Shown piece after piece: positions 841 to 63,517 of a DNA stretch of 64,000 nt. The notes below the pieces were generated by a model. It made no database searches and was not told the origin of the DNA. It saw only the letters and a list, made by a program, of their open reading frames with translations. The position numbers and the translations under genes are program-made. The stretch covers positions 1 through 64,000 of the forward strand of contig SADC01001205.1 in the NCBI GenBank assembly GCA_004194705.1, given 5' to 3'. Each line of letters starts with the position of its first letter. Position 1 is the stretch's first letter. The stretch comes from Ditylenchus dipsaci (Eukaryota; Nematoda; Chromadorea; Rhabditida; Anguinidae).

Positions 841-1317
841 TCCACAAAATTATTTTCAAATTAATCATTTTTGTCAATTATTTTGAGTTTTAATTTGGTA
901 CCTTTCTAACAATTTATGAAATTTTTGAAGACAAAAAGTAAGGGTGGTATTAATTTTTGGCCATAAAATACTGAAAATTGGCCATAAAATATTTAATTTT
1001 TGGCCATAAACTCGACGTGGCATAAAATACTGAATTTGGCCATAAACTTTTGAATTTTGGCCATAAATTTTGAATTTTGGCCATAAACTTTTGAATTTTG
1101 ACTATAAACTCGAATTTGGCCATGAAATGCTTAATTTTGGCCATAATTATTGGGTATTGGCCATAAACTCGGGTTGGCTCTAGGTCAATTTGAATTCCGT
1201 CACCAGTTTTGCTGCGTTATATAACTGTGTTACACTTTTCATCCTTGCAAATTTGCATGTCTTCCGCATCAATATTAGAATTCTGTGTGTTTAGAACTAT
1301 CAAGCTCAACGAATACA

Positions 1318-2500: not shown

Positions 2501-2861
2501 CGTAGAGCCAACTTGAATTCAATATTTTATGGCCAAAATCCAATAATTTACGGCCAAATTCGGGATATCAAGGCCAAATTTAAGTTTATGGCCAGAATTC
2601 AAAGTTTATGGCCAAAATTCAATAATTTATGGCCAAAATTCATTTTTTTATGGCACGTCGAGTTTATGGCCAAAATTAAATATTTTATGGCCAATTTTCA
2701 GTATTTTATGGCCAGTTTTAAATATTATCCAAAAGTAAATTAAAAACAAGTTTATGAATACAAAAAAAATATATAAAAAAAAAATTGAATTTATTCAGTC
2801 CGGGCGGACCATTTTATAATCTTTTGTAAAAATCATGTTTAATCGTCTACTACGTACACAC

Positions 2862-3033
2862 TCATTTGATGACAACTCATTTGATCCCACTCATTTTGAT
2901 CCCACTCATTTAATCCCAACTCATTTGATCACAACTCATTTGATCCCACCTCATTTGATCCCACCTCATTTGATCCCAACTCATTTGATCACAACTCATT
3001 TAATCCCACCTCATTTGATCCCAATTTCAAAAA
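2862..3033 (+). repeat. CTCATTTGATCCC subrepeat array, left terminus
   Basis: About a dozen tandem units of CTCATTTGATCCCA with variants CCTCATTTGATCCCA and CTCATTTGATCACAA. The same array is duplicated at 43,810-43,976. Confidence 0.9.
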
Positions 3034-5321: not shown

Positions 5322-5633
5322 TACGGTCAATTAAATAAGGAATTTTCGGTCTTTATTATTCAGCGCTTACGAAAGCTATAAGTAACAACAGAGAGCCCAG
5401 AAAGAGTGTACCACCGATTGAACACAAAACTGATTGGATACAATATATCGAAGTATTCTAGCGTGGTTTATAGTAGTAATGGGATATTTGAGGTAAAAAA
5501 AATTATGAAATAAGCAGAAAAAAATCAATGCTACTAGGCGGATTCAAACCTTAGTACCAACTGGGGAACGACTGGACGATAAATTTGCCGGGGAATGAAT
5601 TTACCAGGGATGAATTTACTTAGTGCCGAAATT

Positions 5634-5873
5634 GGGATCAAATGAGTTGGGATCAAATGAGTTGGGATCAAATGAGGTGGGATCAAATGAGGTGGGATCA
5701 AATGAGTTGTGATCAAACGGGTTCGTACTCATTTGATCACAACTCATTTGATCCCACTCATTTGATCCCACTCATTTGATCACAACTCATTTGATCACAA
5801 CTCATTTGATCCCACCTCATTTGATCCCACCTCATTTGATCCCAACTCATTTGATCCCACCTCATTTGATCGC
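5634..5873. repeat. Head-to-head CTCATTTGATC arrays
   Basis: Inverted units (5,634-5,720) meet plus-oriented units (5,727-5,873) at GGGTTCGTACTC. The junction is where the right end of the MULE copy abuts the left end of the next element. Flanking sequence outside each array (TTCGGCACTAAGTAAATTC and its relatives) is also homologous among the termini at 5,560, 5,880 and 7,430. Confidence 0.85.
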
Positions 5874-6312
5874 AATTTCGGTACTGAGTCAATTTCCCCA
5901 GGTAAATTCATCCGACGAATTCAACCTCCAGTCAGCAGAACTGACTCAATACTGGGGTTTAAAACCTGTCTAGTATCAGTGAATTGTTGGTGTTTATTCT
6001 ATAATTTTTCGGGGTTAGTGAGGGTCGTGAAACCAACTTTGTGATCAGAAGCCTCAAAATACCATTATAGATAAGCTGTCTATCCGCTTATTCGTGACTT
6101 AATTTTAGATAAAAAAACCGATCTTCTTTGGTTTTTAATCTTAGGTTCGGTGCAGTTAACAAAAAATTGGTTCACTTCCGCATCTCATTACCCGAACCAT
6201 TGAAACTACACCTAAGCTCACACACGGAGTTTAGTTTGGTTTTGAAAATTAGAGGTGATTCAGACATTTTGCTAATTCAAACATTTCCTATGAACCAACC
6301 GCAGTTTTGCTG

Positions 6313-6632
6313 GATGCCCAATGTACCAACAAAACTAAGTGGTAGTCTATTTAAATCAACATTTTTTTTTGATTTTTGGGTTCCAAAACCTATTTTCCGC
6401 TATAAGTCGAACATTTTAAATATAGTTTGACAGCAGTAAAAAAACGTTTCGACATCATTTTCACAGTTCTTGTAAATCTTGCAAAACGTAACTATGTTAC
6501 TGTAAAACCGTCTTTCAATGCTCAAATTAGTGCAGAAAATAGGTTTTGGAACCAAAAAACGTAAAAAATAATTTTGATCCAAGTGGACGGTTACTTAGTT
6601 TTGTTGGCACATGGGACACCCACCAACTCTCT
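6313..6632. repeat. Inverted repeat, possible MITE
   Basis: About 110 bases at 6,313-6,425 (containing GTTCCAAAACCTATTTTC) reappear inverted at 6,520-6,632. The loop is about 95 bases. The two arms produce the mirrored open frames seen on both strands, which are therefore not genes. Confidence 0.75.
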
Positions 6633-6720
6633 TCACAACTCTCTTCAAGAAGCAAAAAATAATAATCTAAATATTTATTTCAACAGCACATTCAGCAAAA
6701 CAAGGAACATGGTGATGTAG

Positions 6721-7339
6721 TTATTCGACTTTCTCAACAGCACCAGTATGACGCAACTGAGAGGCGATGCGATCCAGATCCTTTCGGCCCTGAAAACGAA
6801 ATATTAATCAATTTTAGAATGTGAAAATTCATTTAGATACCTGCTTAGTCGACTTGCGACCACCATCAGGGCTCTTCTCAGCCCACTTCAAGCCCTCCAG
6901 GATTTGCAGAACCTTTCTGATGACGGATACCGAAGCCAAAGAGAAGTGATTGGGTGCAACACCACGGCGCTTGTTTTCTGCATACACCTTACGGAAAGCT
7001 CCAATGCCTGAGAACATCTAGCATTAAACCAAATCTTAAGCGGTTCGAAAAAAATTCCAACAAAAATTGTACACTTACCGGCTGGCGATCTGATGTAAAG
7101 ACGTCGAGCAATGCTGGCAGTGCGCAAATAGTACCAATCGGGATCAATAGGAGCCAATTCCTTGTTCTTGCCTAGCTTGACGACATCAGCTCACTCTGGA
7201 AGCTTGACCTAGCCGCTAAATTTAATAAATATATGAGGCTTCATTCCCATACAATAAAAAACCTCTTCTTCAAGAAACCGGCGAACTGCACGACAATTTC
7301 AGCTTGGTCCACATCATTGACGCTAGTCGGCTTGTCCAT
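6721..7339 (-). pseudogene. rps-19: 40S ribosomal protein S19 copy with two nonsense codons
   Basis: Four exons on the minus strand, 7263-7339, 7079-7215, 6841-7007 and 6721-6789, encode a 149-codon protein matching cytosolic ribosomal protein S19 end to end: an N-terminal TSVNDVDQAEIVVQFAGFLKK, then [20 protein letters not shown], then [28 protein letters not shown] and a C-terminal GRKDLDRIASQLR. RPS19 is usually about 145 residues, so length is normal. All splice sites keep frame, but exon 2 has TAG at 7,209-7,211 and TGA at 7,191-7,193; the family has a Lys in its GKxKxPEW motif at the first and the Trp at the second. S19 is essential for small-subunit maturation, so this copy is probably a pseudogene or a misread sequence. 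It lies between inverted CTCATTTGATC arrays. Confidence 0.85.
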
Positions 7340-7596
7340 GATACTTCGAGCAGATAGATGACTCGATTTTGCTAAAACTCGAAACAGGTAAACACGGAAA
7401 AAGGTTGTTGGTATAAGCCGTATTAAGCCGTATAAGCCGAGTAAAGGATGAATTCATCTAGGGATGAATTTGTCGGAAGTAAATTGACCTAGTACCAGAA
7501 TTGGGATCAAATGAGTTGGGATCAAATGAGGTGGATCAAATGAGGTGGGATCAAATGAGGTGGGATCAAATGAGTTGTGATCAAATGAGTTGTGAT

Positions 7597-8441
7597 CAGG
7601 GTGGTATACTCGACGATTACCTCAGCCATCAGCCTCAGCCTCAGCCGGCTGAGGTCTGAGAATTTTCCTCAGCCTCAGCCGTCAGCCGTGTCAAAATTTT
7701 TACCTCAGCCATCAGCCTCAGCCTCAGCCGGCTGAGGTCTGAAAATTTTCCTCAGCCTCAGCCGTCAGCCGTGCCAAAATTTTTACTTCAGCCATCAGCC
7801 TCAGCCGGCTGATGGCTGAGTTAACCTCAGCCGGCTGAGTTCGAGCTCAGCCGGCTGTAATATAAAACTATTAAAATTAACAATTTTATTGGTTTGTGTA
7901 TAAGTAGCCATAAAATAGACAAAGCTGGCTTTTGAGGTAAAATGACTTATGTTTGGTGAAAAAAAGTCTTTTTTGTGCGAATTTCAATTTTGTGAAATTA
8001 AATTCGTATTCTTCTATTTTGTTTTCAAAATGATGACACCATTAAGTAGCTGTGCGATTCTGGTTACTGATAAAGTATCAATTATTGCATAACGTCACGA
8101 AATGTAAAATAATAAGTTAAAGTTATGAACTGAATTACTTTTCTGACCCCCCTTATGCTTTGGTCCTGCTGTTTACAATTTTTTAAGAGAATGCAATAGA
8201 TATAATTTTGTAAGAAACCAGAATTGCAGCGCTACCTGATGGCATTATTACTATAAAAAATTGGAAATTTCAAAGCTTTTTAGACAAAAAGTAAAGTTTA
8301 AATTTTTTCTGTTAAGAAAATTTTAAAAAATTTTTCTGCCTCAGCCGTCAGCCGGGCCGAAATTTTTACCTCAGCCATCAGCCTCAGCCTCAGCCGGCTG
8401 AGGTCTGAGTTTAACCTCAGCCGGCTGAGGTTACCACCCTG
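7597..8441. mobile_element. Nonautonomous hAT-type element rich in CTCAGCC
   Basis: Terminal inverted repeats CAGGGTGGTA and TACCACCCTG are flanked by a perfect 8-base direct repeat GTTGTGAT (7,589-7,596 and 8,442-8,449), the hallmark of hAT transposition. The subterminal regions are dense repeats of CTCAGCC and the palindrome CAGCCGGCTG. The 845-base interior has no coding potential. The element landed in a CTCATTTGATC array whose unit itself contains GTTGTGAT, so the target repeat deserves caution, but position and length fit exactly. Confidence 0.75.
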
Positions 8442-8912
8442 GTTGTGATCAAATGAGTTGTGATCAAATGAGTGGGATCAAATGAGTGGGATCAAATGAG
8501 TTGTGATCAAATGAGTGTGTACGATCAAACGAGTTGGGATTAAATGAGTTGGGATCAAATGAGGTGGGATCAAATGAGTGGGATCAAATGAGTGGGATCA
8601 AATGAGTTGTGATCAAATGAGTGTGTACGATCAAACGAGTTGGGATTAAATGAGTTGGGATCAAATGAGTTGTGATCAAATGAGTGGGATCAAACGAGTG
8701 GGATCAAATGAGTTGTGATCAAATGAGTGTGTACGATCAAACGAGTTGGGATTAAATGAGTTGGGATCAAATGAGTTGGGATCAAATGAGGTGGGATCAA
8801 ATGAGGTGGGATCAAATGAGGTGGGATCAAATGAGTTGTGATCAAACGAGTTGGGATTAAATGAGTGGGATCAAATGAGTGGGATCAAATGAGTTGTGAT
8901 CAAATGAGTACG
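8442..8912 (-). repeat. Long inverted-orientation CTCATTTGATC array
   Basis: About 30 units of GGGATCAAATGAG with variants TTGTGATCAAATGAG, TGGGATTAAATGAG and GTGTGTACGATCAAACGAG. Higher-order repetition is visible: the GTGTGTACGATCAAACGAG variant recurs at about 8,513, 8,622 and 8,722, suggesting amplification of a composite unit. Confidence 0.9.
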
Positions 8913-40738: not shown

Positions 40739-41565
40739 TTTTACCCCGCCAAATTACTGATTTACCCCGCCAAATTATTTTTTTACCCCGCCAAATTTGA
40801 ATTTTGAGCAAAATACTCGTTTACCCCGCCAAATTACTGATTTACCCCGCCAAATTTGAATTTACCCCGCCAAATTTGAATTTTCGGTGAAATACTGCAG
40901 TAAATTTTGCGGGAATTCAGATTTTATAGTCAAAAATGACTTGGATCGCTCAAAATCCCACCCCGAGTGGCCAGAAGCCCCTGAAAGTTGGTTTTTGGGG
41001 GTTTACTAAAGGGCGGTAAACTTTTTGCGAAAAATCGATTGAGCGGATCAGATTTCGGGTCCGATGGGCTCAATCGCTCAGGATTCCACCCTTAACCATT
41101 CTCAACCATCTTAAACCACCCTAAACCATCCCAAACTGCTCCAGACCAGTATCTAACTACCCTAAATCAGTGCTTACGTTGGTTTAAGATGGTTGAGAAT
41201 GGTTAAGGTGGAATCCTGAGCGAATGAGCCCATCGGACCCGAAATCTGATCCGCTCAATCGATTTTTCGCAAAAAGTTTACCGCCCTTTAGTAAACCCCA
41301 AAAAACCAACTTTCAGGGGCTTCTGGCCACTCGGGGGTGGGATTTTGAGCGATCCAAGTCATTTTTGACTATAAAATCTGAATTCCCGCAAAATTTACTG
41401 CAATATTTGACTAAAAATTTGAATTTGGCGGGGTAAATTCAAATTTGGCGGGGTAAATCAGTAATTTGGCGGGGTAAACGAGTATTTTGCTCAAAATTCA
41501 AATTTGGCGGGTAAAAAAATAATTTGGCGGGTAAATCAGTAATTTGGCGGGGTAAATTAGTTACA
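40739..41565. mobile_element. Foldback element with TTTACCCCGCCAAATT subrepeat termini
   Basis: An array of TTTACCCCGCCAAATTTGAA variants (40,739-40,880) is mirrored by the inverted array (41,415-41,560). The inner arms are also inverted (TCAAAAATGACTTGGATCGC and complement; GGGCGGTAAACTTTTTGCG and complement), so the whole 0.8 kb is a palindrome centred near 41,150. No coding. Confidence 0.85.
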
Positions 41566-42133: not shown

Positions 42134-43690
42134 GTGGTATTTATTTTTGGCCTTAAAATACTGAAAATTGGCCATAAAATATTTAATTTTGGCCATAAAA
42201 TTTTGAATTTTGGCCATAAACTTTTGAATTTCGACTATAAACTCGAATTTGTCCATAAAATGCTGAATTTTGGCCATAAATTATTGGGTATTGGCCATAA
42301 ACTCGGGTTGGCTCTAGGTCAATTGAATTCCATCACCAGTTTTGCTCGTTATATAACTGTCTTACACTTTTCATCCTTGCAAATTTGCATGTCTTCCGCG
42401 TCAATGTTAGAATTCTGTGTGTTTAGAATTATCAAGCTCAACGAATGAAAAGGAAGTTCACCGTGATGTCGGCTCTCCTGATGCCTTTTTCAGTGGTTGC
42501 TTGCGCTTTGGCACCTGGATTCGCTATTATAGGTGAGTGTCTTTGATTGACTGGTGATTCATGTTCTGACTAGGTCTATTTTTCAGTTGGCTAACAACAT
42601 GTGCTCTACGTTCCGATTGCATCAACTCCAGTGCTTTTCAAAGTAAGTTAATTCAATTACAGGCGATTGCTTTAACTATCTCAATGGCCGTGGTTATAAT
42701 CGTGCGTTCAGACTTGGCTTTCCGTTGATCAGTGAGTGCTTAAGTGACAAACTTGTTCTATTAACCCATTCTGTATTACAGTGTGCTCCTTCGAAAAAGT
42801 CTTCAGCCGAATTGACCTCCAGCAGAAGCAGCAGCAATGAAAATGGAGTATTGTTTCCCTATAACAAGTGTACTTCGATGCGATGATCTGAATAAAATTG
42901 TTTTTAGTACATCAGGTTTTTTGAGCATACCGTGAATTTCACAGAAAAGGGAGCCAGACTGTAATTCGTGGAACTTCGATAATAAATGCGTTTTAAAAAA
43001 ATGCTTAAGGAAAGTTTCTGGAAATTTTTCAAATAAAAAAATATCTGAAAGGTTTCCAGGGCCGAAAAACTAACCCACGATTGTTGGGCATCCTCCAAAT
43101 GGCTCTTGAGATCTACTTACTTGAATTCGTGATATTTACCTGAGAAACAAGAAAGTAGGTGTGAAGAAAGGTTTGTAAAGAACAAAACCTGGTTTCAACT
43201 TATCAACACCTGAGAAACTGAGGTAGTCTAAACTGAGGTACTCGACCACCTCGGAGTGGATACCCAAGGTAGACCTACCCAAGTACTAATTAGATATTGA
43301 GATTATGAATAGTCAAAACATCAATTTGATCATAACAAACCATTTCAGTACAAAATTTTAAGTTTAATACTATAGTTCGTGCGACATTTGGAGGTGATAA
43401 TACTTTGGTGGGCCGATTGACTTGTAGACCAATTGTAGACCAATGACGTAGAGCCAACTTGAATTCAATATTTTATGGCCAAAATCCAATAATTTACGGC
43501 CAAAATTCGGGATATCAAGGCCAAATTTAAGTTTATGGCCAGAATTCAAAAGTTTATGGCCAAAATTCAATAATTTATGGCCAAAATTCATTATTTTATG
43601 GCCACGTCGAGTTTATGGCCAAAATTAAATATTTTATGGCCAATTTTCAGTATTTTATGGCCAGTTTTAAATATTATCCAAAAGTAAATT
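42134..43690. mobile_element. Foldback element with TTTATGGCC termini, copy 2
   Basis: Second copy of 949-2742: inverted-orientation array at 42,148-42,305, loop with intact peptide gene, plus-orientation array at 43,464-43,672. Sequence identity with copy 1 is high across arms and loop, with small indels. Confidence 0.7.
42445..42840 (+). CDS. Small secreted peptide gene, intact copy
   Basis: Exons 42445-42532, 42663-42731 and 42782-42840 join in frame to 71 residues. The N-terminus MKRKFTVMSALLMPFSVVAC is a good signal peptide; the mature part reads DCFNYLNGRGYNRAFRLGFP and ends in a Gln/Lys-rich tail (IDLQQKQQQ, then TGA). Using an additional GT-AG segment at about 42,587-42,641 as an exon would introduce a stop, so the longer intron is preferred. 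No family was recognised. The gene is the only cargo of a foldback element that exists in at least two copies; copy 1 has a one-base break. Confidence 0.5.
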
Positions 43691-43809: not shown

Positions 43810-43976
43810 ACACTCATTTGATGACAACTCATTTGATCCCACTCATTTGATCCCACTCATTTAATCCCAACTCATTTGATCACAACTCATTTGATCCCAC
43901 CTCATTTGATCCCACCTCATTTGATCCCAACTCATTTGATCACAACTCATTTAATCCCACCTCATTTGATCCCAAT
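43810..43976 (+). repeat. CTCATTTGATCCC array, duplicated copy
   Basis: Segmental duplicate of 2,862-3,033 together with the flanking AATCGTCTACTACGTACACA. Confidence 0.9.
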
Positions 43977-44185: not shown

Positions 44186-44985
44186 ATGGCTGAATGACGT
44201 GGTTAGTGTGTCTGCGAGAGTGAATTTATTAGAGTCTTTTTCCTGGAGTGGTAAATCATAGGTGAATTTCACAGAAGAGGGACCCAGGCTGTGATTCGGG
44301 GAAGTTCGATAAAAAATGCGTTTTAAAAAATGCTTAAGGAAAGTTTCTGGGTCTTTTTTCAAATAAAACAATTTCTGAAAGGTTTGCAGGCCGAAAAACC
44401 AACCCACGATTGTTGGGCATCCTCCAGATGGCTCTTGAGATCTACTTACTTGAATTCATGATATTTACCTGAGAAACAAAGAAGTAGGTGTAAAGAAAGG
44501 TTTGTAAAGAGCAAAACTTGGTTTCAACTTATCAACACCTGAGAAACTGAGGTAGTATATAATTTGGGGTCGACCACCTCGGAGTGGATACCTACCAAAG
44601 TACTAATTAGATATTGAGATTATGAATAGTCAAACATCATTTTGATCATAACAAACCATTTCAGTGCAAAATTTTATGTTTAATAATATAGTTAGTGCGA
44701 CATTTGGAGGTGATAATACTTTGGTGGCCGATTGACTTGTAGACCAATGACGTAAAGCCAACTCGAGTTCAATATTTTATGGCCAAAATCTAATAATTTA
44801 CAGCCAAAATTCGGTATATGAAGGCCAAATTTAAGTTTATGGCCAGAATTCAAAAGTTTATGGCTAAAATTCAAAAATTTATGGCCAAAATGCAGTATTT
44901 TATGGCCACGTCGAGTTTATGGCCAAAATTAAATATTTTATGGCCAATTTTCAGTATTTTATGGCCAGTTTTAAATATTATCCCC
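44186..44985. repeat. Third, partial copy of the TTTATGGCC element (right half)
   Basis: Homologous to 1,906-2,735, ending in the TTTATGGCC array at 44,770-44,980. It directly follows the truncated transposase exon, so it marks a rearrangement between tandem or nested copies. Confidence 0.8.
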
Positions 44986-54555: not shown

Positions 54556-55623
54556 TGTAAGGACTCGCCCGAACGTTAACAACCAGCTTTTGTCCTAACC
54601 AGATTTAGTGTTCATAGAGAACACAATATAGGGACAATTAACCAGTATTATATTTGAATTCAAACTAGCTTTGGTCTTAACCAGAATTAACTGCACCAGG
54701 AGCAGTCTTGACAAAACTGTATCATATATTTATTTCTGGTTTAGTTGATGTCAAGCTGCTCGAGTTTCCACTCCTCTAAGAAGGTTAGTAGTATTTTTAG
54801 TCATGGCTCTAGTGTAACCAGTCATAGTCATGGCGCAAGCCAGATTTCATACCAGGCTCAAACGAGCAAAATACAGGAAGCTATTCAGCTATTGCTCTCT
54901 AGTGGCATTAATCCTGACCAGATTTCAAAGCTCATGAGTAAGGCCAAGCCGACTCGTAAGCGACCAGGGTTATCACTTGAATTGGTCGATGACCTTGACG
55001 ATCCAGATTTCTCCACTAGTATTAAATTCGGCGTAAAAGCTCATACCAGTCTTTCTGCCCCTGGTGATCATACTAGGGGTCTAACCAGTTCCAAGGCTCT
55101 CCGCTCCATGACGTCCATCGCCTCAAGCTCGCGCTCCCGCTGTGCCGGTGAAACAAGCAAGTCTCTCTGGGTGGTGCCTGCCGTGGTCAAGCCAGCTAAG
55201 GAAATCAGCGACCAGTCTTCTGCCTTCCAGCAAGTTCTCCCAGTGTCTATTCAGCCAGTGGTCCAATGCTCTTCGGTGCTTGATGGGGATGTCCAATCGC
55301 GTATCTCTGTCCGTGCTGATGACCAGAATGCCGCTCCTGTCTGGCTCCAGTGGATGAATGACCAGTCTTCCTCTCTCTCTCCAGCCTCAGTCAAGCCAGT
55401 GGTCCTTGGATCTTCAGTTCTTGGTGGTCATGTCCAATCGCGTATCTCCACCCGTCCTGCTGACAAGTTCCGCTTCAATGCTGTGGTTGCTAAAGAAGAG
55501 GAAGTGTCTCCAGAATCTCTTTCGTCAGAATCCATTGTACCAGTCTTGTCTTTGTATTGTGGTAACCAGACTGTGGTCGCTGGTTCCTCCGGCTTGCCAT
55601 GGTGCACCAATAAAATACCCAGT
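54556..55623 (+). repeat. 5' long direct terminal repeat
   Basis: 1,068 bases starting TGTAAGG, containing the start of the 330-codon frame. Identical to the 3' copy except for a TA (about 54,723), one G in GGGG (about 55,288), one C (about 55,470) and a few substitutions. Confidence 0.8.
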
Positions 55624-55740
55624 CGAGACATGTCCTTTGTTCTTACTGGTAGCACCATGGATGAGTACGGAAGGGCCAGGAGACAATTTACCCAGTATTT
55701 GATCAACCAGATCGCAAGAAGGAACCAGATATTGCTATAA
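54748..55740 (+). CDS. Ser-rich protein starting in the terminal repeat
   Basis: 330 residues from ATG 54,748. Family not recognised. The N-terminus is Ser/His-rich (SSCSSFHSSKKVSSIFSHGS), followed by IQEAIQLLLSSGINPDQISK, which looks helical, and an acidic patch (LVDDLDDPDF). A segment of roughly 40 residues is repeated (QPVVQCSSVLDGDVQSRIS and KPVVLGSSVLGGHVQSRIS). The frame begins in the 5' terminal repeat and runs 117 bases past its end. The 3' repeat copy has a one-base deletion that truncates the frame at 62,098. Codon content is shaped by ACCAG words. It could be the N-terminal part of Gag or an accessory protein. Confidence 0.55.
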   Translation: MSSCSSFHSSKKVSSIFSHGSSVTSHSHGASQISYQAQTSKIQEAIQLLLSSGINPDQISKLMSKAKPTRKRPGLSLELVDDLDDPDFSTSIKFGVKAHTSLSAPGDHTRGLTSSKALRSMTSIASSSRSRCAGETSKSLWVVPAVVKPAKEISDQSSAFQQVLPVSIQPVVQCSSVLDGDVQSRISVRADDQNAAPVWLQWMNDQSSSLSPASVKPVVLGSSVLGGHVQSRISTRPADKFRFNAVVAKEEEVSPESLSSESIVPVLSLYCGNQTVVAGSSGLPWCTNKIPSRDMSFVLTGSTMDEYGRARRQFTQYLINQIARRNQILL

Positions 55741-57103
55741 ATCTTCCGATTGATAACCAGAATTCTCTAAATACCCAGCTTTTTAAACTAAACCAGGTCT
55801 TTGCTCCTCGTTTGCAAACCAGTTCCGCCGGGTCGGTCACTGTACAAAAGGACCCGGATAAGCGAATTGTTTCTGAGATTAAGAGTGAAGATGAAACCAG
55901 CATTATTTCTGCAAGAACCAGTGTTGAGTTTGGTAACCAGGAGGGATATGTGACTCCTTTACGGACTCCAGATCCCTCATCTAATTATTCTCTTTTCTCT
56001 AACGGCTCTGCGAATCTAACTTTGTCTTTCAGGAGGGGAACTTCGTGGCACGCTTGACACTCAAGACCCGCTACTTTTTGGAAAACGGGGCTCTAGTGGT
56101 TCCAGCCGGTGTTCTTTCGCTCTCGAGGCTCCGCGCAAATCTAGCTTTGAGGGTCAAACCAGTGCGAACGAATCAAGCAGAATTGGAACCAGCTTTACTT
56201 TAGAGGATGATTTCATCATCAAATCTAAAGACCAGAATAAGAAAAAGGTGACCAGCATTAAGAAATCTGAGCCGGGTTTATTCCTGACTAAAGATATTGA
56301 CCAGACTGTAAGGGGATAACCAGATTGGGCGACGGTTATATGGTAAATTAACTGTGCTCGAAACCAGAATGACCAGGGATATGGCTAAGATAACCAGAGA
56401 TTTAGGTGAGATAACCAGAAAGTTGGACATTCAAGCATCTCTGCTCGTTCAGCAAAACCAGTATATGAGCAATACTCAAAAACAAGTAACAGTCTTTCCA
56501 CCAGTGTGAATATTCAGTCTGGGGTGATCGAGGACTTCGAGGAGCGAATAGTCGATTGCCATCAGTACACTGATATTCAGCTGGCTAACCAGAATTTAGG
56601 CAAATTGCGATCGGATCTTGAGCTGACCAGAATTCACGTCAACAAGCATTCGGAGTTCTTGATGGCTCAGCAACAAGAAGTGATTTGGGTCAAGAATGCT
56701 GTCCAGGATTACATCAAGCGACCAGTCTTCCGTCAGCATGTCAAGGAACCTGATGGACCTCTAACCAGCTTTGCAGTGGTATCCAGCTTTGAAGAAACCG
56801 CGAAAGAGGTTAGTACACCAGATTTAATTACGTTCTCTGTAGATGTACTCAAGCCAGTATTGTGGATGAAAGTCAGCTTGATCCACATGACCAGTCGTTG
56901 TTGGGTAACCAGATTTTGAAAGAACCGGATAAGGTTACTGACCAGATACATTCTCCATCTGATGACTTGGATAAGGTCAGAGAATGGTTGAATGACACCA
57001 GTAATCTAAACCAGATTCAAGCTGAAAGGAGTCAGCAAACCAGCTCTTTAATGTCGAGAGGGACGGTTACCAGAATTTTGAGCAGGATTATGAAGGCCTG
57101 TAT
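55741..57103 (+). other. Element interior with shifting short frames
   Basis: Plus-strand frames 55,812-56,057, 56,506-56,919 and 56,862-57,107 are protein-like in patches (for example VIEDFEERIVDCHQY and LGKLRSDLELTRIHVNKHSE, coiled-coil-like) but change frame repeatedly. They are probably one coding region broken by indels, or a spliced region whose introns were not resolved. Confidence 0.4.
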
Positions 57104-58911
57104 ATGATGCAAACCAGAAATATCCCCATGTTCAGTGGTGAAGCGGGTCAGGACTTTGACAAGTGGCTCCAACAATTCGAGAATAAGATCGATGGGTATA
57201 GTGAGCGGATGTCTGAGAAGATGAAACTCGCTAGGCTCAAAGATAACCTCGAAGGGTTGGCCTACGACTCAATTCATGACCTGACTGCCCAGAACGCTAT
57301 CCAGAATTACAGTGAGGCTATCCAGAAGTTAAGATCTCTCACAGATACGGAAATGATTCGTATGAGAGCAAGCCAGGAGTTGGATAAAACCAGACAATTA
57401 AAGAACCAGTCCGTTTTGGAATTCTACTACCAGATTGCGGAGCTAACCAGAAAAGCCTACAAGGGCGAACAACCAGATAGGATTAGGGAGCGGATTTTAG
57501 AGCACTGAAGAAGCGCTATCTCCGGATCTTCTCTACGAGCTTCGCCGTGAACCAGCCTGGTGTGATTCCGATCTCGAAAGCTTCGTCAAAGCAGCCCAGA
57601 AGGAAGAAGAACGCCAGCGCCTGGATGAGCGGGAGAAGCCAGCATTGGGGTCCCAGATTAAGGACATCTTCGTAGGTGTTTTAAATGAACACTCTCTAAT
57701 CGGAACAGTGCTTCGGCCGTTTCCTCTAACCAGAATTTAGATGATCATACCAGAAATAGGGATAAGAATCCTCCAACCAGAATTCGGACAGAAGTAGTTC
57801 TCCTACCAGTACTTCTCCGACCAGACATCGAGATGATTTGGCGACAAAAGAGTCTCGTTTTCAGACCAGCCTAAAGGGATTTTGAAGGATAACCAGTATA
57901 ACCAGATAGATATCGTGATAACCAGTATTCTCCACAGTTAATCAGTCTGCTCAGCCTCCTGTAGTTGTGGTTAATCCTGTGGTGGATTATCATGATCACT
58001 TGTACAGGGCGCTGGACAGAGATGGTTATTATCATTCACCAGCTAGAGAGGATTTGGTCGCCAAATTCTCATATCCGGTGTCATAGGTGCAACCAGTTTG
58101 ACACTATGCAAGGTCGTGTAGGGGTCGGCAGTTTATTCCGTTTAGGGAATACAACAAGATAGGACATAACCATAGGGACTATAACCAGCATAACCCGAAT
58201 TATAATCAATTTAGTGGTTACAACCAGAATTATCAAGAAGAGTCGTTCTATCGTCCACGCAGGGGAAGCATGTTTGGTGCAAACTTTCGTGGAACCAGAG
58301 GGTACGATAACCAGTCGAATTTTCGTAGAGTGCTTGGTCTAGGCGCCAATGATCAAGCACACCAGAAGGCGCATCAACCAGATTTCGTTCCATTCAAGGT
58401 GATGCAAGAAGCTCTGCAGCGCAAGGATATGGAATGGGAACGACGATACCAGGATTCTATGCGACCAGCTGAAAACGACTTTGGGGATTTCGAATCAAAA
58501 GTCGACAACCAGGAGGTAGGTGCTAACCAGAATTTTACCTCTTTGCGAAAAGATGACCAGAATCAACCAGTAGATGAAACGGTGCATAGCATAACCAGAA
58601 TTCAGAACCAGAAGGAGTCAATGCTTTTAGAGGAAATAAAACACCTCAAAGAAGCATTGAACTTCCAGATTGCGCGGTACCAGAAGGTGGATGATTGTGA
58701 ACATCCGGAACCAGATGCTACTCTGAGTGTCAATCATCACTCAGATAGCATAGAGCACCAGTTTTTTCTGTTTTTGAGCAGGACTAACCAGTCTTATAAC
58801 CAGATTGCTGAACGCGATAACCAGGGCTTCAGGCCAGTGGCTACTACTTGGGTAGCAGTCAAACCAGAGAAGGTATTGGCTAATAGAGAAACCAGTTTTA
58901 AGGGCGATTGA
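57104..58911 (+). pseudogene. Retrotransposon Gag-like region, frameshifted
   Basis: The first frame (57,104-57,508) matches the pattern of retrotransposon Gag: IPMFSGEAGQDFDKWLQQFE, then helical LKDNLEGLAYDSIHDL and SVLEFYYQIAELTRKAY. It shifts by one base at about 57,503 into ALSPDLLYELRREPAWCDSD and an acidic/basic helix (FVKAAQKEEERQRLDE). Further on, at about 58,080-58,115, the four zinc ligands of a retroviral-type CX2CX4HX4C knuckle are readable only across a one-base shift. The frame 58,270-58,911 is Asn/Gln/Arg-rich and then coiled-coil-like. Gag packages element RNA into particles. The breaks suggest decay or base-call errors. Confidence 0.55.
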
Positions 58912-59019
58912 TAACCAGCTTATTACTACCAGTTTTCCGACCGCAAGGAAGGACTACCCAGTTTCGTTGCTCCATATGGACAATAACCAGGAAGATGGTG
59001 TCTCTGATACGATCTTCAA

Positions 59020-59639
59020 TTCAGCCAGCAGAATGTGGCAGTTGAGCTAACCAGACTTTTAATTACTATCATACCAGATACTTCAACACCAGTTGCTGTG
59101 GTTTGTGCATATCGTACTGATATGTTCTTTCTGCAGGAAAAATTGCAACCAGAATTAAAGGAGAATCGAGTGACAGTCTCATACTTTGCTGAGCTGCCTC
59201 CTCGAAACTCACCAGTCGTTGTGTTTGTAACCAGTAGGACGAATGGTAACCAGCCTCAAACGTTGTATGACGTAACCAGCGTTATTAAACCAGTCTTTCA
59301 TACTTTAAGTCATGCCAGTCAGGGATTGTTCATCATTGGTGACATGACCTATTTAACCAGAATTGTGACTTTTTTCTCGAGTCTTTGAAGGAAGTCGCCA
59401 GCATTGCTCAACCAGTTCGTGCCGTCGACTACATCTCGGCGATCAAACCAGCTTTTGGAGAAAACAAGCAACCAGTCCAGCGATCTGATGATGGGATGCT
59501 TCAGTTCAATGGTGCTTCACTCCAGGCTCAGTGTGCTGTCCAGAATCTCTTCGATGCTACCAAACCAGTGCCGTTTCCTACGGAAGTCGTTGACGAGCCG
59601 ATGGATGATAACCAGGAGGTGGAACAGAACCAGGCTTGA
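59020..59639 (+). pseudogene. SF1 helicase-like fragment inside the element
   Basis: Residues encoded from about 59,026 resemble the C-terminal RecA-like domain of Upf1/MOV10-type superfamily 1 helicases: QNVAVELTRLLITII, PVAVVCAYRTDMFFLQEKL (the VVTPYRxQ-like motif), VTVSYFAELPP..VVVFVTSRT (position of the DxFQGxE..VxSxVR motifs), then LSHASQGLFIIGDMTYL (the NVALTRAxxxLxIxG-like motif). The invariant catalytic Gln/Glu and Arg residues of motifs V-VI are not preserved as expected, so activity is unlikely. The frame ends at 59,388; 59,385-59,639 is a second frame ending in acidic VVDEPMDDNQEVEQNQA. It could also be a chance resemblance in a divergent element protein. Confidence 0.4.
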
Positions 59640-61299
59640 GTCTTTGTAAGTCTCTCTCAATACCAGTCTTCTAAACTAGCATTTCTTACCAGCTTTTCTT
59701 AACTAGCTTTCTATTTTTCACCAGTCTTTGGGCGAAAGCCTTATAGTACCAGCTTTGGGATTATCTGATCCTAAGTTTTTGTGAGTGCTAACCAGATTTG
59801 GGAGCAGGCATACCAGTTAATGCTCACTACCAGATGCTAGCCAGTGCGAGTGCTAACGATGTCAAAGTTAGCCAACTACATACCAGATTAATTGGGGTTT
59901 AACTTTACCAGATTTTCTGTACCATTGGCAGATGGTAAGTTCTGAAGTGACCCAAGGTTTTGGACACTGTCTTAAGTAGGGGTAGGAGTAAAAAGAATAA
60001 AAAGAAAAAAAAAATAACCAGTAGGGCTAGAGCGCAGTAACCAGAACTGGGTAACACCAGCTGGTTTTAAAGAAAACAGCTAGACTGTGCTCTAGTCATT
60101 TTTATTGTCTGAGAGCATAGTGCTGACCAGTTGCCGTGGCATAGGGGGGGATCCGTCGTCAAGCAGCCGCCTTCGCTTCGCTATCTCCGTCGTCTTCTGC
60201 TGTGGACCAAATAGCCTTCTGTGCCAGTCAAATTTCTGCTGCCAGCCTTCAAATCAATTGCTCCAGCCAGTGCTCCTGCTATCCAGTGGGCCATGCCTCC
60301 AGAGTGTCCCAGCTGATGTCTAGCCAGTGTTCAAATGCCTTGGATGGAATCAGCCAGCTATCTGCAACCAGCCTTGATCTCCAAGAAGAATACCAGCTGA
60401 TGCGAGCAAGTGGACAAAGCCAAACAAGTCAAAGCAAATCGCCGTCCAGCTCAAGTCCTATCAATATCTCCTCTGTCGAGTGCACCAGTCTCTGTGGCCA
60501 GCTTCTTTCTCCAGTCTCAGCTATATCCAGTGGCCAGCGCAAATATCAAACCAGCAGTGGAGCGTCTCTATCAGCAGCAATCTATCAGTCTTGTGGCCAG
60601 CCTTCTCAGACCAGCAGCAGTACAAGCCAGTCTCAAGCCAAGCAAGCCTTCTATCAGTCCAGATCCCCTTCAACGGTAGCTGGTAAGCGCTCTCGTGTGT
60701 GACCAGTTGTAAACTCCTGCTTCGAAAATGGGATAGCTGTTTGGAATCTTGGGGAATGGATGCGCAAGCCAGATGTCAGGAAGTGCAGGAGAAAAAGTAG
60801 GTTAGAACCAATTAATTATCAACCAGATTTGACTTGACTAGGGGACTCTCATGTCTGGCCAGTCTTACAGTCATACATACCAGTGGTGGCAAGGGTGATA
60901 GGGAAACCCGTGTCATCTGATAACCAGGGAGAAACCGGTGGCGAGGGTGATAGGAAAATTTTAATAACCAGTAGTTGACATACATACCAGCTTTCTAAAC
61001 CAGATAGCTTGTAGGGTGTGCTCTCCTACTGGTGGCTAACACTTTATAGGGTGGTAGGCTGCCGTTAATACCGGTAGAGTTAGCGCAACCAGATTTACAA
61101 ACCAGTCTTCTGATTACTGCTACCCAGTCTTTAGGTGTCTACATCTCATACCAGCTTTTCAAACCAGGCAAGTGTCCCTATATCAGGTCGTCGGTGGCAA
61201 TTGGCGTTCCTGGTGTAAGGACTCTTGCGAAAAGTCGGGAGTCTTTTCGCCTTTCGTCGGTCAGACGGTGCGGGGTCGCACCTGGTGGCTGGTGATAGG
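59640..61299 (+). other. Element 3' interior, ACCAG-rich, mostly non-coding
   Basis: Contains one Ser/Gln-rich open frame (60,202-60,702, no ATG at its start), dominated by CCAG words, which does not look like a conserved protein. A partial copy of the terminal-repeat start (TGTAAGGACTC) lies at about 61,215, 85 bases before the 3' repeat. No clear polypurine tract. Confidence 0.45.
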
Positions 61300-62363
61300 T
61301 GTAAGGACTCGCCCGAACGTTAACAACCAGCTTTTGTCCTAACCAGATTTAGTGTTCATAGAGAACACAATATAGGGACAATTAACCAGTATTATATTTG
61401 AATTCAAACTAGCTTTGGTCTTAACCAGAATTAACTGCACCAGGAGCAGTCTTGACAAAACTGTATCATATTTATTTCTGGTTTAGTTGATGTCAAGCTG
61501 CTCGAGTTTCCACTCCTCTAAGAAGGTTAGTAGTATTTTTAGTCATGGCTCTAGTGTAACCAGTCATAGTCATGGCGCAAGCCAGATTTCATACCAGGCT
61601 CAAACGAGCAAAATACAGGAAGCTATTCAGCTATTGCTCTCTAGTGGCATTAATCCTGACCAGATTTCAAAGCTCATGAGTAAGGCCAAGCCGACTCGTA
61701 AGCGACCAGGGTTATCACTTGAATTGGTCGATGACCTTGACGATCCAGATTTCTCCACTAGTATTAAATTCGGCGTAAAAGCTCATACCAGTCTTTCTGC
61801 CCCTGGTGATCATACTAGGGGTCTAACCAGTTCCAAGGCTCTCCGCTCCATGACGTCCATCGCCTCAAGCTCGCGCTCCCGCTGTGCCGGTGAAACAAGC
61901 AAGTCTCTCTGGGTGGTGCCTGCCGTGGTCAAGCCAGCTAAGGAAATCAGCGACCAGTCTTCTGCCTTCCAGCAAGTTCTCCCAGTGTCTATTCAGCCAG
62001 TGGTCCAATGCTCTTCGGTGCTTGATGGGATGTCCAATCGCGTATCTCTGTCCGTGCTGATGACCAGAATGCCGCTCCTGTCTGGCTCCAGTGGATGAAT
62101 GACCAGTCTTCCTCTCTCTCTCCAGCCTCAGTCAAGCCAGTGGTCCTTGGATCTTCAGTTCTTGGTGGTCATGTCCAATCGCGTATCTCCACCCGTCCTG
62201 CTGACAAGTTCGCTTCAATGCTGTGGTTGCTAAAGAAGAGGAAGTGTCTCCAGAATCTCTTTCGTCAGAATCCATTGTACCAGTCTTGTCTTTGTATTGT
62301 GGTAACCAGACTGTGGTCGCTGGTTCCTCCGGCTTGCCATGGTGCACTAATAAAATACCCAGT
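61300..62363 (+). repeat. 3' long direct terminal repeat
   Basis: 1,064 bases, nearly identical to 54,556-55,623. The loss of one G at about 62,028 truncates the internal frame at 62,098. Confidence 0.8.
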
Positions 62364-62724
62364 ATGAGAACTTCTGTTGTTCTTACTCTACTAGACCCCC
62401 CTCCCCCTAAATTCAAAGGGCCACCCTAAATTTTGTTGGTTTTTATGATTTTTAGGCTTAGGCTTTAGGTAAGGGTAGGCAATTAATTTTGCTTTCACCC
62501 ACTATTGCAACCCCTGATTGTCACATCAGGCCCGTTTACAATGAGTGTAGACCTTAGTGTGTGATTTGGCGTTTTTAACGCGGGAAGAGCTGTATTTTTT
62601 CTTGACTGAAATTTCTTTCTGTTTGTACCATCTGGTAGCTCTTAGAAATTCAGAGCTTTAAAATGTGTTATTTACAAGCAACATCTTATAAAAAGAATTG
62701 CGGTAAAAATGCTTAGGTCCGCAC

Positions 62725-63031: not shown

Positions 63032-63517
63032 GGAGAGCCTGCTTCTTATGGTACTGGATATGTAATAGTATATGTCCCGGACCAGAGAGATTCTAAGTCA
63101 GCTATTATTTACGCTGGAATTTCTGGCCATAGCGCTAAAAGTGAAAGACAAGCTTCGCAGCAATGGTCAAATCGCTTATTTACGCATGCCAAAAGCCACT
63201 TGTTCCAAAAATACAAGGAGATAAAATTTTACAAGGTGCTTGAACGAGCATCCATTGTTGCCATCCGCCATTGGGAGTTTTCAACAATATATGCCAAAAG
63301 TATAATTGCTTAAGAAAGCATATATAACCTTTCATTTTTAGACCTAATCGATTCAACTGTCACACAATACCCCATGGATAGGCCTTACAATGAAGATTAT
63401 TACCTAGAGTTAAGAAACAATGAATATCCATTGCAGTATCTAGATACAGAAACCATAACACCACAGCAAGCAAACGAATGGATGTCTAAAGCTTACGCAG
63501 AAATATTTGTGCATTGA
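63032..63517 (+). CDS. GIY-YIG-like endonuclease, possibly 5'-truncated
   Basis: Exons 63032-63299 and 63342-63517 join in frame (A|GTATAATT donor, TTTTTAG acceptor) and end at TGA 63,515-63,517. Residues YGTGYVIVYVP then IIYAGISGHS, followed by QWSNRLFTHAKSH and VLERASIVAIRHWEF, match the order GIY, YIG, R..H and a later conserved Glu of GIY-YIG nucleases, which cut DNA with one metal ion. An upstream exon 62771-62923 could splice in frame (donor GTAAGC, phase 0), but it lies antisense to the polymerase fragment and is doubtful. GIY-YIG nucleases are known in some virophage- and Polinton-type elements. The fold assignment is by motif only. Confidence 0.5.

Follow-up and report, generated by a model that had tools for sequence, protein, structure and literature searches.

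Why should a transposable element carry a single pentanucleotide on one strand, in all three reading frames, along its whole length? The question is raised by a long terminal repeat (LTR) retrotransposon at positions 54556-62386 (plus strand) of the DNA analysed here, the first 64,000 nucleotides of contig SADC01001205.1 of the nematode Ditylenchus dipsaci (GCA_004194705.1), hereafter the window. The element has a gag-like frame and no recognised pol, and its sense strand contains 152 copies of ACCAG. The best-supported reading is that such pentamers form a dispersed tag on single-stranded RNA that would be read by a cognate protein and kept under selection. A probability of roughly 0.43 is given to a lineage-specific tag of NCCAG and its flanks whose cognate reader, probably the Gag of the element itself, would serve self-packaging. 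Throughout, L numbers denote genome loci examined and C numbers contigs of the same D. dipsaci genome.

Saturation and probable selection at the nucleotide level

Between 54556 and 62363, the span first assigned to the element, ACCAG occurs 152 times, compared with 9.5 ± 3.0 (maximum 18) in 200 dinucleotide-preserving shuffles. The mean density is one copy per ~50 nt of the sense strand. These counts confirm the excess reported in an initial annotation made from the sequence alone, which had also placed nine copies between 57,729 and 57,921; these are found at 57729, 57749, 57776, 57805, 57820, 57865, 57892, 57901 and 57921. The host DNA of the window (55.5 kb) is not equally enriched, as it shows only a mild excess of ACCAG (50 versus 34.6 ± 5.4, shuffle maximum 50), and CTGGT is found there 44 times versus 36.2 expected. 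The first copy in the element lies at 54582 and the last at 62305, the next one downstream being at 63081. The motif thus stops at the element borders, as had been described, but the element itself ends at 62386 and not at 62363.

Positions modulo 3 are distributed 62/45/45 and the LTRs are saturated too, in agreement with the earlier view that the motif is independent of frame and is not a protein repeat. Copies are also found outside recognised genes, with 29 in the 1631 bp of the 3' part (59650-61280, plus strand). This part had been called non-coding; its saturation holds, but it includes a possibly coding 185-aa open frame (60145-60702) without a Pfam match. The largest spacing between copies, 276, matches a gag stretch (57118-57388) with no ACCAG at all, which is read as protein constraint overriding the motif. 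Fixed spacing is absent, as originally stated, yet spacings below 10 nt are under-represented (2 observed versus 15.2 expected), and the same depletion occurs in six of six elements. It would fit a reader with a footprint of ~10 nt or more; biased flanks may contribute. In the window element (27.5% A), the favoured flanks are an A before the motif and T at +7 and +8.

Codon bias, a protein repeat, a tandem repeat or an assembly artefact could draw on the sites that translate as Asn-Gln in one frame. Such explanations have practically no chance, given that sites lie in all frames, in LTRs and on many contigs, and given a codon-shuffle control on L068, a related gag-pol element filled with TCCAG. 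With protein and codons kept, its motif counts exceed expectation in gag (25 versus 8.9), reverse transcriptase (RT; 18 versus 4.4), RT-RNaseH (27 versus 7.6) and integrase (10 versus 2.4). The observed count was reached in none of 500 shuffles per frame, and the sites fall in all three frames. Motif positions are also conserved between copies. When the window element was compared with 12 other ACCAG copies, of which the near-identical C146 and C1236 count about once, these positions had a lower mismatch rate than the remaining ones in every one of the 12 comparisons (P<0.05 in seven). Mismatch was likewise lower in the 3' part 59650-61280 (seven of seven comparisons, two at P<0.05) and in the gag core (four of four, none at P<0.05). 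Whole motifs were kept above other 5-mers in all 12 rows and above permuted 5-mers in 10, the two exceptions having n = 15 and 2.

A directed mutational or copying process, such as error-prone reverse transcription, editing or biased conversion, could also write the pentamer without selection, as had been considered from the start. It would account for a saturation indifferent to frame and for the scarcity, in the window element, of neighbours altered in the last base, which look as if converted (ACCAC 0, ACCAT 3 and ACCAA 4 versus 6.3, 6.6 and 9.0 at the host rate). At motif sites, relatives differ mostly by substitutions and in places by indels, and this, together with the conserved positions, argues against such a process; moreover, the lineage-specific pentamers and flanks described below would require a separate process for each lineage. 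We know of no editing that produces a whole pentamer. A mutational origin is therefore quite unlikely.

Pentamer dialects and their evolution

The picture of ACCAG alone proved incomplete, as related elements are filled with other pentamers, TCCAG or CCCAG. By dinucleotide shuffle, the 152 ACCAG of the window element compare with 9.8 expected, the 158 TCCAG of L068 with 14.1 and the 165 TCCAG of L069 with 18.3; in 3 kb each, L070 has 58 CCCAG versus 5.5 and L071 has 56 TCCAG versus 5.1. The antisense count is one in L068, L069 and L071 and zero in L070, and it is 2 and 6 in L033 and L034, counted over the entire loci with their flanks. DNA relatives of the gag region (L027-L036, 66-78% identity) contain only 0-7 ACCAG per locus on either strand; TCCAG is the dialect of L029-L035 and part of L027, and CCCAG that of L028 and L036. 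The genome search for further saturated elements that had been suggested gave 37 partly overlapping loci, in which ACCAG leads the NCCAG words in 27, TCCAG in eight and CCCAG in two. The A dialect is over-sampled in this set because both locus searches began from an ACCAG element. At least 12 NCCAG are present in the best 1 kb of 33 of the 37, the weak four being L002, L003, L005 and L021. No fourth (G) dialect was seen among the loci examined, a set that did not come from a genome-wide search.

Saturation was found in none of 30 sampled RVT_1 loci (of 150 listed) of other retroelements, where the highest ratio was 5.3 (7 copies) and the highest copy number 11. RT relatives were rejected as carriers on the example of L059: its RT shows 48% identity to the L068 RT over 252 aa, and the 3.5 kb examined are unsaturated. 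Another pentamer ranks first overall in three family loci (L021, L026 and L027). L026 1-1500 and L021 2001-2500 (reverse complement), and L027 2001-3000, are dense in AAGCC, ATCCG and GCTCC, respectively, beside element fragments. None of these was accepted as a further dialect: AAGCC and ATCCG are located beside the NCCAG part and are taken for satellite repeats, and GCTCC adjoins a TCCAG-rich stretch. In L070, positions 6501-7000 are rich in TCCAG (8 TCCAG, 1 CCCAG) between oppositely oriented CCCAG-rich segments, and may derive from an element with the other dialect nested there.

The CCAG core is constant in all dialects, while the first base and the flanks are lineage-specific. L068 uses T as first base almost exclusively (158 copies), and its A, C and G forms (9, 5 and 11) stay at shuffle level. 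A G at +6 follows 69% of the motifs in L069 and 7% in L068. The off-dialect sites of L069 (GCCAG 40, CCCAG 15, ACCAG 10) carry the same G in 57%, 67% and 60% of cases, and behave as near-cognate sites would.

Placed on a 14-row gag tree, the dialect labels, three in number, need two changes, which is the minimum, and masking the NCCAG sites leaves this number the same. The A group forms one clade (100/99). The tree is unrooted, near-copies ease the clustering and the C dialect is a single row. The T dialect is likely to be ancestral. In the gag alignment of nine elements, some homologous sites have been respelled. At one column the window element has GCCAG and C160 has CCCAG, with TCCAG in the remaining seven; at a second, the window element has ACCAG, C160 has CCCAG and the remaining seven lack the motif.

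The probable tagged molecule and its proposed reader

All motif counts were made on the DNA copy of the elements, not on RNA. The sense to antisense ratios of 158:1, 165:1 (~8 kb) and 58:0 (3 kb) would be surprising for a reader of double-stranded DNA, as a DNA-binding protein has no evident reason for near-total orientation bias. In local folding with three shuffles per element, sense motifs are more often unpaired than in shuffled surroundings in four of four elements (0.200/0.138, 0.142/0.102, 0.193/0.119 and 0.234/0.151). Antisense motifs gain too, again in four of four and with smaller absolute gains (0.047/0.034, 0.054/0.052, 0.057/0.050 and 0.027/0.021), which counts against an RNA tag; folding hence lends weak support and hardly separates the strands. 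This overlap, and the 16 ACCAG present in each LTR, would suit sites on double-stranded DNA or chromatin that serve promoter, nucleosome or heterochromatin control, but the orientation bias makes this very unlikely. That a bound nucleic-acid motif is selected at the nucleotide level, as initially suggested, remains the best reading.

According to the mechanism proposed here, each element would mark its own RNA, at intervals of about 50 nt, with an NCCAG tag whose N (A, T or C) depends on the lineage. A protein with a footprint of ~10 nt or larger would read the tag on the sense RNA, and this reader would most likely be the element's own Gag, with its single CCHC knuckle. The purpose would be self-recognition, in which an element's own RNA is coated and packaged in preference to that of its rivals. 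A change in reader specificity would be followed by respelling of the sites (T to A, T to C), and elements with gag but no recognised pol, such as the window element and L069, would keep the tag. An own-Gag reader and self-packaging are suggested because the dialects coexist in one genome and fit the gag phylogeny, and because gag and tag occur together in elements without recognised pol. Among the functions listed in the initial annotation, packaging fits best because the dialects are lineage-specific within one genome. In an extension considered almost as probable, the dialects might constitute a self/non-self code, in which each pentamer is read by the Gag of its own lineage and rivals cannot share particles; a dialect could then shift only by coupled evolution of the reader and ~150 sites.

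Several observations weigh against this proposal. The evidence comes from one genome, and the C dialect from one contig (C160). The reader is a putative protein that we infer. Knuckles already differ between elements of the same dialect and that of the window is split between frames, so a link between knuckle and dialect is not supported. Some gag sites have not been respelled: the window element still has TCCAG at two columns, and three TCCAG elements likewise read ACCAG at one ACCAG column. Other NCCAG words are also raised in the window element (TCCAG 27 versus 14.2, GCCAG 29 versus 9.5), perhaps as weak sites or relics. Finally, CTGGT had been described as rare, which is true relative to ACCAG (14 versus 152) but not relative to chance (7.8 ± 2.8 by shuffle). 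Six of the 14 lie in the two LTRs, seven are internal and one, by subtraction, is at the junction of LTR and primer-binding site (PBS); the internal ones include two, at 61282 and 61289, inside a conserved stretch preceding the 3' LTR.

Alternatively, one or more host RNA-binding proteins with a CCAG core might bind the element RNA to repress its splicing, to promote its export or to exempt it from small-RNA silencing, and dense sites might have evolved for this. The constant core in all three dialects, the sense-strand bias and the frame independence fit such a reader, and a precedent for transposable element sequence tuned to a host protein is available in SAFB and L1, as far as the accessible part of that report goes (PMC10901741). 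A shared host reader would nevertheless predict one motif, whereas L068 is nearly exclusive for T as first base, the +6 G varies by element as given above, and the 30 sampled loci of other RT elements are without the motif. A host reader is accordingly doubtful, although less so than the other alternatives to the Gag tag. SRSF2 recognises CCNG and GGNG; degeneracy of the CCNG type is not seen in the elements. Among CCNG words, the only ones counted for this purpose, L068 has 158 TCCAG versus 4 TCCTG, 3 TCCGG and 1 TCCCG, and splicing control, one of the options first raised, is disfavoured in the form of an SRSF2-like enhancer because the fourth base is nearly always A. The analogy with periodic A/T clusters (PATCs) of nematode germline genes probably does not hold. 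PATCs are A/T runs with a ~10-bp period; the motif centres on CCAG, keeps to one strand and shows no fixed spacing.

Carrier elements, neighbouring repeats and known systems

In the window element, whose features all lie on the plus strand, the LTR alignment defines a 5' LTR of 1091 bp (54556-55646) and a 3' LTR of 1087 bp (61300-62386) with 98.9% identity over 1092 columns. A PBS-like stretch (55647-55660) directly follows the 5' LTR, and the same stretch follows the LTR of L069. Mimicry of the tRNA primer (NCCA as discriminator plus CCA) was considered as a source of the dialects and rejected, because the A-dialect window element and the T-dialect L069 have the same PBS-like sequence. The gag-like open frame (57026-57508) matches PNMA with an E of 3.9e-5, under the curated Pfam cut-off, and aligns to relatives at ~57118-57388; the corresponding frame of L068 matches PNMA at 6.3e-6, over the cut-off. 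A zinc-knuckle-like pattern split across two reading frames was noted by eye (58060-58115), and a pattern scan of the window gave no match to an intact knuckle. A helicase-like domain (59008-59388) corresponds to the C-terminal part of AAA_12 (E 1.1e-4, under the curated cut-off). A 24-mer (61284-61307) spans the internal/3'-LTR junction and is common to elements of the A and T dialects; it occurs 31 times in exact form in the genome (reversed pattern, 0). No pol was recognised by Pfam in the nine frames tested, and no RVT_1 falls in the element among the 150 matches listed.

By these sequence features, the carriers represent one clade of LTR retrotransposons of the Ty3/gypsy type. In the gag-pol element L068 (C68), TCCAG reaches 6-13 copies per 500 bp between position 1500 and the end of the 10 kb examined, and runs through the gag, RT, RNase H and integrase frames. 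The Pfam matches of L068 include RVT_1 (1e-25) and RT_RNaseH_2 (5e-33) and, under the cut-off, rve (5e-5) and Asp_protease_2 (1.5e-4). The CCHC knuckle is matched by zf-CCHC in L068 (2.7e-4, over the cut-off) and by zf-CCHC_6 in L069 (2.6e-4, under it), and single intact knuckles were found by pattern scan in L068, L069 and L033. L069 (C1325) is a 7.85-kb element with 95.5% identical LTRs, with which its TCCAG begins and ends; like the window element, it has gag, no recognised pol and a retained tag. In protein searches, gag matched a single protein (UniRef P0121 of D. dipsaci, with an exact 220-residue stretch common to L027) and RT-RNaseH matched 122, the best at 43% identity over half of the query. 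A PDB sequence search gave weak matches only for the knuckle frame. Scans of viral contigs and one scan of a collection of genome contigs revealed no relatives. The TCCAG gag-pol element on C68 probably spans ~15 kb, from ~82 kb to past 96 kb (sequence read to 90.5 kb), and carries the helicase-like domain close to its 3' LTR.

The helicase-like protein, or another element product that is not Gag, might itself read the tag for RNA remodelling, replication or counter-silencing. Its match lies 1.8-2.1 kb before the 24-mer junction with the 3' LTR in eight places (window, C186, C1308, C68, C862, C1332, C160 and C1185) and 3.5 kb before it in a ninth (C1186). It accompanies all three dialects: A in the window, T in L078 (from C862; 13 TCCAG in 1 kb versus 1.9 expected) and C in L070, where the match at 5505-5839 (C160 225004-225338) is inside the CCCAG part. 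Set against this, only the C-terminal fragment is recognisable, a PDB sequence search gave no match for it, and L069 is saturated, yet its contig is not among the 25 helicase matches. Such a reader is considered unlikely.

Other repeats are present in the window. Facing arrays of ~20-21-bp units with GGCCATAAA-like cores occupy window positions 956-1169, 2516-2726, 42138-42305, 43461-43663 and 44768-44979, one pair of arms being 1.4 kb apart. A second set, at 40740-40876 and 41406-41561, has the different core CCCCGCCAAAT, and both sets look like subterminal repeats of DNA transposons. Tandem arrays of 15-bp units (ACTCATTTGATCCCA and its complement) occur in both orientations at 2860-3024, 5632-5875, 7501-7598, 8442-8909 and 43812-43975. 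Elsewhere in the genome, SL1-like RNA genes mark it as that of a nematode; all 50 among the matches listed score under the family cut-off, and some lie in tandem arrays on C351 (~6.6-19.4 kb) and C409 (~50-60 kb), with periods of ~1.08 and 1.17 kb.

If the proposal of a Gag-read tag holds, selection has imposed on a transposon, even within its coding parts, an RNA identity mark as long as the element's genome, with dialects resembling those of bacterial DNA uptake sequences. Protein sequence would then have been shaped to an extreme degree by selection on nucleotides. The tag would also make the choice of an LTR element's own RNA a tractable problem and suggest how elements without pol may stay mobile. 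No description of a saturating pentamer or of dialects in LTR elements was found among the titles and abstract openings listed in searches of the open-access literature (subscription literature lay outside their scope), and the word "motif" has no occurrence in the accessible part of a paper on D. dipsaci transposons (PMC11118728).

The window element and its relatives resemble Ty3/gypsy elements in their LTRs and PBS-like site (window, L069) and in their matches to the gag CCHC knuckle, protease, RT, RNase H and integrase (L068), but differ in the saturating pentamer and in the helicase-like domain before the 3' LTR. As far as the accessible parts of the following reports go, three other systems invite comparison. 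Dispersed packaging signals of RNA viruses are sequence-structure elements (PMC6281560, PMC5431903, PMC7612645), and those of hepatitis B virus present a core motif in a stem-loop. They similarly place many copies of a short shared motif over the genomic RNA, where a structural protein reads them; here, in contrast, ~150 copies of a nearly invariant pentamer fill an LTR retrotransposon, with lineage dialects and a putative reader. In the L1 retrotransposon, adenosine-rich coding sequence is bound by SAFB, and transposon sequence is thus also tuned to an RNA-binding protein (PMC10901741). That sequence is adenosine-rich and bound by a host repressor, whereas a discrete pentamer that differs between co-resident elements is found in D. 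dipsaci. The DNA uptake sequence dialects of Neisseriaceae likewise consist of a short repeated word with a required core and lineage variants, follow phylogeny and serve self-recognition (PMC3630211). They belong to bacterial DNA and to transformation, and share no common descent with a transposon RNA tag.

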